Assembly (NCBI GenBank): GCA_009746045.1
Contig: RPFO01000213.1
Coordinates: 3,275,266 to 3,339,265, forward strand
Source: Mesostigma viride
Taxonomy: Eukaryota > Streptophyta > Mesostigmatophyceae > Mesostigmatales > Mesostigmataceae
DNA: 64,000 nucleotides
Direction of reading: 5' to 3'
The notes under the pieces are model-generated. The model did not search any database. It was not told the DNA's origin and was given only the letters and a program-made list of their open reading frames with translations. Position 1 is the first letter of the stretch, and every line of letters starts with the position of its first letter. Both the position numbers and the translations under genes were made by a program. Shown here piece after piece: positions 51,699 through 57,600 of this stretch.

Positions 51699-54600
51699 AT
51701 GCCGACTAAACAATCAGGTAATATGGAATTCGTTTTTTTTCCCTCTAGATTTTAGTTATTTTTCATGGGGCGTTGAGTAACATGGGATTTTGAGTAACAT
51801 GGGACTTTTCATGGCGCCCTGCTTACGGTTGGTTGTCCATTTATCGCAGATGCGCCGGCCGTTCCGGGGATGCCGGCGGGTTCCTTCGATTTCTCTCAGA
51901 TGTCAGCATTCCTGAACGTATGTATTTTGAGCTAACTTTTACCGCAACGCACGACCTATACCTGTTTTTTGGTGTTCCAAGGTGCATCTATTCGATAGTT
52001 GTTAGGACTGTTTTCTAAAGGAGGTTTACTGTTAGGGGGGAAATAATGATGTTTTCAGTTTCTTGCGGCATATGTATATTTTTGCATGTATTGACGTCAG
52101 GGTAATGGTAAAAATCCCTTATTGCGTCCCGTATCGCCAATCACAGGACCCCAAAATTCGCGACATGGCTGCCCAGATCGCGGCTGACCCCGCTTTTGCT
52201 CAGATGGCCGAGAGCCTTACCGGGGGTGCCGGAAGGGGCCGAGGTGGCGGGGAAGCTGCCCAGGTTCCAGATATTAATCCTCAGCAGTACATGCAAGCCA
52301 TGCAGCAAGTGATGCAGAACCCTGAGTTCATGCAGATGGCGGAGCAGCTGGGGACGCAACTCATGCAGGTATGTTACGGCTTTCACTTTCTCGTACATCT
52401 CAGAAAGATCCAGCTTAATTTTCTCTTTTCTCTCTCTATGAATTCTCTACACATATGTATATGTGGGCACTGTTTCCTGGCGCTATGTTTTTAATGAACA
52501 TATAGACGTGTATGCTTGGATCGCAATTGACAGCGAATTCAGTATAATTTTGGACGTTTGGGGGAGAGGGTCAAGCAGGAGTGGCCATTTAGAATTGGTC
52601 TCCCCCCCCCCCCCCATATTCCCCACACACCACTAGTGTAGTTCTCTCCTCCCAGACTTGGATGCATGTGCAGTGGTGTATTCACGTGAGCTGTGTATCT
52701 TGGCAAAGTTGTCAAGTGATGGCTCTGTGTGTGGAACCTAGGGTGAGTATAAGTTAGTATACTTGCCTTCCAGAGCGGTTTTTGGTCAAGCTGCCACGTT
52801 GAGTTGATGACAACCATTAGCATCCCAACAAGGCCCGTTGCAAAATCTTGCAACTTTTGGTGTTGCATTCATCTGCTAGGTGCACCATGTTCCACTGCAG
52901 TAATGGCACAAAGCAACTTTTACTCTAGAAACGGCTTATGCTGTGTGACTGGCTCCTGTACCGTGTGTGTCTGCGTAATAGTAGCACAGGTGGCACGTGT
53001 GTGGTTTCATCCACATCCGTATGTGGCTGCTTGTACAGCTGTCTGCCTCCCTGCTGAGCTAAATGAAAAACACATACCAAGAAATGCTGTACAGGACAGC
53101 GTATTGAAATCCAGTATCCATAGCTGTGTGTCGTCAACCGACTGCTTATGCCGTCCTGTGTGCATGTCTTGTGTCATCGGCCCCCCTCAAATGCAGTAGG
53201 CCTACCGATTATGTCTATGCCCGTGCCGGTGTGGTCCCCCTCCCCCTCCCCCCTCCCCCCCCCTTCCCCGCGCCCCCCTCTGTTTCCACATGGGTACCCA
53301 TGTCGATCCTTCCCCCCCTCCCCTCTCCCTCTGGCAGGACCCTGCCATGTCCAGCATCATGCAGAGCATGCAGACGCCCGAGTACAAGGCGCAGGTGGAG
53401 CAGCAGATGGCGGCGCTCAAGGAGGACCCTGAGCTCAAGCCGATCATGGAGGAGATCGAGAAGGGTGGTCCGGCCGCCATGATGAAGTGAGCAGAGGGGG
53501 TGGGTGGGAGAGGGAAGGGGGCGATGATGAAGTGAGCACGTGGAGGTAGAAAAGGGGGTGGTGTAGGGAGGAAAAGGAGGAGGTTGAGAAAGGGCTGGCT
53601 GCCGTGATGAAATGAGCAAAGAGCAGAGAGGAGAAGGTGGCGTTAGAGGGGGTGAAGAAGATATTGAGAAGCGGGGTTTGGCTGCCATGATGACGTGAGC
53701 AGATGGGGTGGGTGATAGAGAGGGAGAGGAGGTGATCGAGGAGGGGGCCTTTCTGCCTTGATCGAGTGAGCATGGGGGGTCAATTAGGGGGGGTATTTTA
53801 GAGGGAAGGGAGGAGATTTAAAAAGAGGCCTCATAGAGAGATAGAGGAGATTAAAATGGGTGGTTGTGCCGCTATGATGAAGGGGTTAAAGGGTAGAGGA
53901 GGGCGTGGTGAGAGAAGAAGGGAAGGGAGATGAAGAGGGACAGGAGGTGATACCGACGGCGAGCTTGGTGCCATGACGAAGGGAGTTATACAGCAATCAA
54001 ACAAATAAAGAAAGGGGGTAGTGATGTGTGCCGACTTGTTTGATTGGGAGCGGGAGTCTAAGGTGACGTGGTTGGTTTGCTGCCCTATGTGGTGCACCTG
54101 GGGCATTGATGATGTCTGTTCAAGATGATGTCTTTGTGTAACAATAACGCGCGCTGTTTGGGTGTGGGTGGATCATTCACGCTATTCCTGTTTGGGTGTG
54201 GGTGGATAATGGACGCTATTCCTGTTTGGGTGTGGGTGGATCATTCACGCTATTCCTGTTTGGGTGTGGGTGGATCATTCACGCTATTCCTGTTTGGGTG
54301 TGGGTGGATCATTCACGCTATTCCTGTTTGGGTGTGGGTGGATCATTCACGCTATTCATGCCTATTACGCTATTCCTGTGTTGAATCCAGTATTGTACCA
54401 ACAAATTTCATTGTCTGGGTCACCACGTGATCGGGTAGTTGCTTTGGATGGGGACGTCGCAAGTACGAAGTTCAGGGTTTTATCTTGCCAGCTGTACGGC
54501 TCCCTGCAGCATGTTTGTGGTCAGGGCACGTGTGCGGGCCTTTGCTCCTTCGTTATATTTTTTCTTCTATTCTTTAATGTGCCATGTGATGATGAAAAAT

Positions 54601-57600
54601 AGCGGATTTCTCAGAGAATGGCATTGGGGCTTTGCCCTGGCTGTCATTCGCTGAAGAGCAACCTATACACACACACACCTGATGGCACAATTTTCACTTT
54701 GTTGGTTATAGTTTCGTGCTTTATGATAACCCCTGCTTATAGGATGATGAAGGTGCAGGAGATGCCTCAGTCAATGCCTCATATGGAGGTTTTTCGGTTC
54801 CTTGCGCGCTATTCACTTCTTAGCGTGCAGCTCCCTGCATATGCCCATGCCATGTGATGATGAAAAATAGCGGATTTCTCAGAGAATGGCATTGGGGCTT
54901 TGCCCTGGCTGTCATTTGCTGAAGAACAACCTATACACACACACCTGATGGCTATATCAGATGCTGTCTTTACTCCGTTATGCTTCCCTTCCCTTTTTTG
55001 TCCTTGAAGCTCGCTGCATATGTCCACGCCATGTGATGATGAAAAATAGCGGATTTCTCAGAGAATGGCGTTGGGGCTTTGCCCAGGCTGTCATTTGCTG
55101 AAGAACAACCTATACACACACACCTGATGGCTTGTGTACAGGAGACCTGTGTTCCTATTTACAAATATAATTATTGGTTGTTTTTCCCTGTTATCCCCCC
55201 CCCCCCTTACGCCACTGTTCCTTTTTTTGCCAAGTGACGACCAAGTTTAGCGGATTTCTCGGAGCCTTGGCCTCGGGCTCCGCCCTTGCCACCAAGCGCT
55301 GACGATAAACCTACACACACACAACTGATGGCAAAAAGAGTTGTATTCATTTTGTTTTAATCCCCTCACCTCCTTATTGTGTCTCTCTGCCCCCTTACTA
55401 CTGCCCCCGTGCTGCAACCCTTGTTGGATCTCATCCCCTCACTAATATTATCCATCGCCTCGTTTTATTCTCCTCATGGCCACCCTCACCACCCCGCCCC
55501 CCCTAACCTCATCTCCACCCTGACACATACCACCACCTCAACCCCCACGCCCTACCCACCTGCAAACCCCACCCACGTGCCCCTTCCACCCCATCCCCCT
55601 CACCCCACACATCGTCCCACACTCCACCCACCTACGTCCCACCCATGCCTCACCAACGCTTCACCCACGCCCCACCCACGCCGCACCCACGCTTCACCCA
55701 CGCCCCACCCACGCCCCACCCACGCCCCACCCACGCCCCACCCACGCCCCACCCACGCCCTACCCACGCCCCACCCACGCCCACCCACGCCCTACCCACA
55801 CCCCACCCACGCCCCACCCACGCCCCACCCACGCCCCACCCACGCCCCACCCACGCCCCACCCACGCCCCACCCACGCCCCCCACCCACGCTGCATCCAC
55901 GAACCATCCACGACCGCCGCCCTCGCCACTACCACCACCACACCACCACCACCACCACACCACCACGCCACCGCCACCGCCACCGCCACCCCCATCCCCA
56001 TCCCCATCCCCATCCCCATCCCCATCCCCATCCCCATCCCCATCCCCATCCCCATCCCCATCCCCATCCCCATCCCCATCCCCATCCCCATCCCCATCCC
56101 CATCCCCATCCCCATCCCCATCCCCATCCCCATCCCCATCCCCATCCTCATCCTCATCCTCTCCTCATCCTCATCCTCATCCTCCCTACCGGCAGGTACT
56201 GGAGCGACCCGTCCGTCCTGCAGAAGCTGGGCAAGGCGATCGGTGCCGGCGGCGCGCTGGGGGGTGTGGTCAACCCGGAGGGGGGGGAGGAGGTCGAGGG
56301 CGAGGGCGAGGGCGAGGGCGAGGGCGAGGAGGGGGAGGAAGAGGCGCCAGGCATCCACACGGCCGCCAGTGACGGGAATGTGGAGGTGGGTTGGCGTGCT
56401 TTTTTCTGGCAACCACTGTTGACCGCATTTTGGGGCGTTGTTCTGGCAGCCTTGTTTGCGGGTAGGCATTTCAGATAGCGCATCGTCAAGGTTGTTGTCG
56501 TAATCTATGTGTTTCAGTTGTCAAGGTTCTTGCCATGTTCTTCTGGTGGCTATGGTTGTTACCAACTACACCATCACCAAGTCGTTGTCGGCTTTGCGCA
56601 TCGCTTGGCTGGACTGGCACACAAGCATGTTGCCAGCGCCGTCCCTGTCACACGCTGGATTTTGGGCTGCCATCTTTGTGATGCTAAAACTAGTCTGTGG
56701 ACATGTGTTGGTGTGGGGGAAAGGGCCAGGATCCTGGCATCGACCCAGCGGGGGGCCAGGGGCATTGCCAAGGCATATCAGCACCACATCCCCTTCTGAT
56801 GCCGATTGCTCGCCCTGTGGTGGCTCCGCTTGGGCGTCACTGTCATCAGCTTGCTTTGCCTGGTGATGCCTGCTTGCTGATACCTGCTTGCTGATGATTG
56901 CTTGGTGTTCTGACCACTGGCCATCTGATGCCTCACAGCTCCTGAAGCAGCTGCTGAGCGAAGGCGCGGACAAGGACGAGCAGGACAGCGAGGGCAGGAC
57001 CGCGCTCCACTTTGCGTGCGGATACGGGGAGGTGAGCCCTGCCTTCCTGTTCGCCCCTCTGCTCGCGGGGTATAAGGCCAGGTTGAAGGCCAGGCATATC
57101 ATTTACGCTTCATTGGCTGCCGTCGCATTTTGATAGTCCAATACGCGTCCACATCGGTGCAGTCTCCTCGTTTTTGTGTGTGGAAATGTGTGATGGGGAT
57201 TTTTTCGATTTCTTGTCTGTTTCCATGCAAGCACCGCAATTTTCGTAGCCTCACATTCACTGACAGCCCGACTGGGTGCCATGCCACCACCCAATGGTGG
57301 CCATGTCTCATGACACAACTTTTCCGCCCTTGTGTGCCACCTATGACATGCCCATCATGGTCGGCTGTCACCACCCTTGTGTCACCACCCTCATTACTGC
57401 CGCCGTCACCACGCTTCATGGACACCCTTGTCAGCGCCGTGTTGGCCACCATGTTGCTTCAGCATATCTTTGTATCAGCCACCTGTAAGAAGGCAAGTTT
57501 TTCTACATGCTTAGTTATTTTGGGGATTTGGTGCCTGTGCTTCTCTCATTCCCAAGTGTGTGCATTTGGGTTGTCTCCACCCCATCGTCCCCACCCCCAC

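Follow-up and report, generated by a model that had tools for sequence, protein, structure and literature searches.

The 64,000-nucleotide stretch of the Mesostigma viride genome analysed here (contig RPFO01000213.1; hereafter the window) contains an AKR2 gene, one intron of which hosts four tandem units resembling box C/D small nucleolar RNAs (snoRNAs). An original prediction, made from the letters alone, had placed these units in an AKR2 intron and had suggested that they form an undescribed orphan snoRNA family. The host assignment holds: joining the exons across the intron restores the reading frame (...GGPAAMMK^...), a protein labelled jgi/Mesvir1 matches the spliced 270-amino-acid query at 99% identity across 99% of the query and, among the best 120 of 551 matches, the other named ones are plant and green-algal proteins at 53-60% identity (one at 39%), many of them named ankyrin repeat domain-containing protein 2. 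Thus, box C/D RNAs in the intron of a chaperone gene are retained from the original prediction, but the orphan family is not.

All four units lie on the plus strand, are 104-106 nucleotides (nt) long and have an inner hairpin and a terminal stem that joins the D box to a C box, which reads GTGATGA in copies 1-3 but GTGACGA in copy 4. The GCCA-N-C box ... D box-TGGC geometry is identical in the four copies, as originally described. A strict search that required a 4-nt stem, one base, RTGAYGA, CTGA and the complement of the stem, applied to the whole window on both strands, gave exactly four matches, which are the four copies; in 100 block shuffles of the window, it gave four matches in total (0.04 per shuffled window). 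The uninterrupted outer stem comprises 7, 4, 4 and 9 base pairs (bp) in copies 1-4, respectively. Pairwise identity is 94-98% among copies 1-3 and 71-73% between each of these and copy 4. Because copies 1-3 are so similar, the four copies do not amount to four independent observations. The fold z-scores of copies 1-4 are -4.6, -3.4, -2.1 and -1.5, with 0, 0, 7 and 10 of 200 shuffles folding at least as well. In an intron rich in simple repeats, one might suspect a tandem repeat that resembles C/D motifs by chance; however, the excess of strict matches over the shuffled windows, as well as a guide match to ribosomal RNA (rRNA) and its position, make this explanation extremely improbable.

The predicted function of these RNAs rests on the block next to the C box, TAGCGGATTTCTC, which is invariant in all four copies, as the original prediction had noted. 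With CAGA taken as the D' box in copies 1-3 and CGGA in copy 4, the sequence ending one base before it, TAGCGGATTTC in copies 1-3, perfectly matches the large-subunit (LSU) rRNA of the alga itself over 11 bp in copies 1-3 and 12 bp in copy 4. This match begins at the second base before D' in all copies, i.e. at least 10 nt of rRNA antisense lie next to the D' box. By the D'+5 rule, the selected nucleotide is the third A of GAAAUCC in the LSU rRNA. The search covered part of the alga's own LSU. The ribosomal DNA on contig C1582 (44100-73800; L010-L012) is fragmentary with runs of N; no 18S is present in the examined part, and its minus strand holds two LSU pieces with the target, at a distance of 4492 bp from each other.

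In the alga's own LSU, the C of GATCTTGG comes 184 nt after the target A, and an A in GGTAAGCAGAACTGG 120 nt before it; we take these two motifs, separated by 304 nt, to be the U24 and U38 sites, respectively. The target assignment that follows rests on these anchors. In the parts of the sources available to us, the same spacing is obtained in Arabidopsis (1447 minus 1143; PMC8053127), in yeast (1437 minus 1133) and in Ostreococcus tauri (1319 minus 1015) (PMC11542601). In human, the corresponding spacing is 480 (PMC11542601) and, therefore, gives no guidance for a human position. Because the spacing to the U38 and U24 sites is identical to that in Arabidopsis, the nucleotide at D'+5 is the counterpart of Arabidopsis 25S A1263. 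A1263 has been mapped by RiboMeth-seq and attributed to SnoR22 (PMC8053127, as far as available). The site corresponds to Am1264 in tomato and to the predicted Am1135 in O. tauri, and the available part of the same list has no human or yeast entry for it and gives "np" for tobacco (PMC11542601).

Based on these observations, we suggest a model in which the cluster, with high likelihood, encodes four intronic copies of a box C/D RNA that guides methylation of the counterpart of A1263 and is thus functionally the SnoR22 of this alga. Box C/D snoRNAs are stable nucleolar RNAs to which fibrillarin, Nop56, Nop58 and Snu13 bind. In this model, the RNAs would be transcribed with AKR2, released from the spliced intron and assembled into ribonucleoproteins; the D' guide TAGCGGATTTC would pair with GAAAUCCGCUA(A) in the LSU rRNA, and fibrillarin would 2'-O-methylate the third A of GAAAUCC. 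The original prediction had instead taken the invariant block as a single-stranded functional part of orphan C/D RNAs with a role outside rRNA. This would agree with the lack of a clear rRNA target by the D+5 rule before the D box and with the failure to reach any Rfam gathering score. However, the block is a guide, with a perfect 11-12 bp match to the alga's own LSU beside D' on the counterpart of a known 2'-O-methylated nucleotide, whereas an orphan should have no complementarity to rRNA or small nuclear RNA beside D or D'. We, therefore, reject the orphan or undescribed family, which we consider highly improbable. The earlier statement that no target is evident applies to the AC-rich run before the D box and not to the block before D'. 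Very probably, the four RNAs are new genes of the ordinary box C/D kind, and the mark that they would introduce is already known in land plants. The coordinates of all elements are listed in the table.

Table. Elements of the four-copy cluster and its host intron (positions in the window)
Feature	Position	Strand	Details
AKR2 intron hosting the four RNAs	53487..56195	+	GTGAGC...CAG borders, 2709 bp
Copy 1 box C/D RNA	54581..54686	+	stem GCCA; C box GTGATGA 54586-54592; D box CTGA 54679-54682; stem TGGC
Copy 2 box C/D RNA	54849..54952	+	C box GTGATGA 54854-54860; D box CTGA 54945-54948
Copy 3 box C/D RNA	55028..55131	+	C box GTGATGA 55033-55039; D box CTGA 55124-55127
Copy 4 box C/D RNA, diverged	55229..55332	+	C box GTGACGA 55234-55240; D box CTGA 55325-55328
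Copy 1 D' guide	54600..54610	+	TAGCGGATTTC; complementary to LSU rRNA GAAATCCGCTA
Copy 2 D' guide	54868..54878	+	
Copy 3 D' guide	55047..55057	+	
Copy 4 D' guide	55247..55258	+	TTAGCGGATTTC; 12 bp
Copy 1 C'/D' element	54612..54657	+	D' CAGA 54612-54615; hairpin 54616-54649; 3-nt bulge GCT 54650-54652; C' CTGAAGA 54651-54657
Copy 2 C'/D' element	54880..54925	+	D' 54880-54883; hairpin 54884-54917; C' 54919-54925
Copy 3 C'/D' element	55059..55104	+	D' 55059-55062; hairpin 55063-55096; C' 55098-55104
Copy 4 C'/D' element	55260..55305	+	D' CGGA 55260-55263; hairpin 55264-55297; C' CTGACGA 55299-55305
Copy 1 3' (D) segment, AC-rich	54658..54678	+	TACACAC can pair with LSU GTGTGTA; function uncertain
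Copy 2 3' (D) segment, AC-rich	54926..54944	+	
Copy 3 3' (D) segment, AC-rich	55105..55123	+	last 20 bases are those of copy 2
Copy 4 3' (D) segment, AC-rich	55306..55324	+	

Internal boxes are present in all four copies, with a degenerate D' (CAGA/CGGA) followed directly by the hairpin, then GCT and then GAAGA or GACGA, so that C' reads CTGAAGA or CTGACGA. We infer that D', the hairpin and C' form a complete kink-turn, in which the hairpin (in copies 1 and 2, 15 bp with G-U pairs counted) would be stem I. According to the part of PMC5389607 available, stem I is often missing from C'/D' motifs; by contrast, the putative stem I of the four copies is long. The bases at D' position 2 and C' position 5 are A.A in copies 1-3, whereas copy 4 has G-C there. 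While the D box CTGA of the original prediction stands in every copy, the inner CTGA belongs to the C' box; we rejected it as a D' box because the preceding bases are a variable part of the hairpin and because a C' box accompanied by a 3-nt bulge accounts for CTGAAGA/CTGACGA. Copy 4 had been described as changing most stem bases with pairing kept. The changes are confined to the inner hairpin and the stem extension, the innermost outer-stem pairs, GCCA/TGGC, being the same in every copy. Pairing is kept in the 9-bp outer stem and in CTTGG/CCAAG, which replaces the AATG/CATT pairs, but the register is shifted by one and the copy 4 hairpin favors a shorter stem when folded alone. Read as compensatory, the hairpin changes support the stem, from two distinct sequence types only.

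For the AC-rich segment upstream of the D box, pairing was computed for copies 1, 2 and 4 against a 1412-nt LSU piece (1390 windows of 22 nt). TACACAC is a 7-nt complement of LSU GTGTGTA, which starts 15 nt after the G of GAAATCC. In Arabidopsis, SnoR22 has a second target, U1278, at a distance of 15 nt from A1263 (PMC8053127, in the part available). The counterpart of U1278 is, by counting, the second U of GUGUGU. The segment could thus be a true second guide methylating a GUGUGU nucleotide (the equivalent of G1275, G1277 or U1278), in line with a complementarity that falls in the second-site region of SnoR22 and that in copy 4 is the only 7-nt match in the LSU piece, with 16 of the 1390 windows scoring as high. 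However, the run is of low complexity, 48 of the 1390 windows reach 7 nt with copies 1 and 2, each of which has two further 7-nt matches, every copy has C at D+5, a base that would pair with G rather than U, and the register varies between copies. We regard a true second guide as doubtful. Probably, the segment would add pairing to GUGUGU just downstream of the target or represent a degenerate second guide for the U1278 region. As a tentative extension that we consider unlikely, one RNA might clamp the LSU segment with two arms flanking the hairpin-closed C'/D' kink-turn; the D' arm would methylate the A1263 counterpart, and the slippery AC-repeat arm, varying among copies, would pair with GUGUGU in several registers, aiding the first methylation or marking a G absent from the plant site lists consulted.

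The similarity of copies 1-3 is also what recent duplication would leave behind, and the uninterrupted terminal stem of only 4 bp in copies 2 and 3 fits partial decay, such that one or some copies would be active and the rest relics. C, D', C' and D boxes, guide and core stem are, however, intact in all four copies, and we consider relics improbable. Upstream of copies 2 and 3, the flanks resemble each other over about 25 nt (54825-54860 and 55004-55039), and the duplicated unit is, therefore, probably larger than the RNA. Elsewhere in the intron, a minisatellite with units of about 34 bp (GTTTGGGTGTGGGTGGATCATTCACGCTATTCCT) lies upstream of copy 1 (54150-54360) and, by eye, CCCACCCACG-like repeats and CCCATC repeats form long arrays just 3' of the cluster (55620-56170).

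In covariance-model searches, a check proposed with the original prediction, a model built from the four copies finds only these four in the window, and no Rfam family matches the units at its gathering score. A search with the whole region in the 440-Mb genome returned one match, the region itself. TAGCGGATTTCTC is found at six genome places; four are the copies, and the other two show no C/D unit by eye. One of these two (L006, contig C557) has a near-perfect inverted repeat at 1370-1440 beside the chance match to the guide block, possibly a transposon end by eye. The other (L007, contig C2011) appears AT-rich and bacterial-like by eye and might stem from a contaminant or symbiont included in the assembly. 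The combination of GATGA with TAGCGGATTTC 3-25 nt behind it is present in copies 1-3 and at one other genome site (C446:52986; L257). Although C-box-like letters and the guide block are both present at this site, it falls inside a 109-amino-acid open frame and, up to E 1, matches no Rfam family; we rejected it as a family member. Given the length of the pattern and the size of the genome, we estimate about five such chance matches, although a reversed-pattern control gave none. Thus, exact patterns reveal no further gene of this type in the genome, although a diverged one would escape them. Matches to GATGAN{4,20}TAGCGGATTTC in viral and other genome contigs (the genome-contig titles being prokaryotic among the matches listed) and a minus-strand Giardia U4 match over copy 2 (E 1.2; 17.4 bits versus 100) were taken as chance. 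The published M. viride annotation reports five snoRNA genes (PMC6947507, in the part available), and the cluster could be among them; among the papers listed in literature searches on Mesostigma and snoRNAs, no title or abstract opening describes it.

Several points weigh against the proposed A1263 guide. Rfam snoR11 matches three of the four copies, and not copy 4, at no more than 19.6 bits versus a gathering score of 50, and the units are not filed as members. CAGA and CGGA depart from the D' consensus CUGA, U1278 is not at D+5 of the 3' segment, and copy 4 folds only slightly better than its shuffles. When G-U pairs are counted, stretches of the units outside the guide, most of them in the hairpin, match the LSU piece L010 over 12-14 positions, which equals or exceeds the guide length, and a better second target may exist, the comparison having been made with a partial LSU. 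Finally, transcription, ribonucleoprotein assembly, methylation, the kink-turn and the role of the AC-rich segment are predictions that start from the architecture, the rRNA complementarity, the target position and the host intron, all of which can be read from the DNA.

Several known guides bear comparison with these RNAs. Like Arabidopsis SnoR22, they have A1263 as the predicted LSU target, and their 3' segment is able to pair in the region of U1278, 15 nt from that target; however, their D+5 register misses U1278, and the likeness is one of target site. Similarly, the O. tauri C/D snoRNA predicted for 25S Am1135 is likened by site only, the nucleotide being the same by spacing (120 nt after Am1015 and 184 nt before Cm1319; PMC11542601, in the part available). 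snoR11 shares the UAGCGGAUUUC block after a C box, but the remaining RNA, including the long hairpin, is unaligned at the sub-threshold scores given above. Thus, our findings would extend an rRNA methylation guide of the green lineage, mapped in Arabidopsis and tomato and predicted in Ostreococcus, to Mesostigma, a deep streptophyte lineage. They also illustrate that such guide genes can remain under Rfam thresholds and that an apparent orphan can be resolved by checking the D' guide against the organism's own rRNA. The arrangement of the four copies in one intron follows a theme described for Chlamydomonas, in which, according to the available part of PMC7671301 and likened here by description only, intronic snoRNAs are clustered and the clusters contain multiple isoforms.
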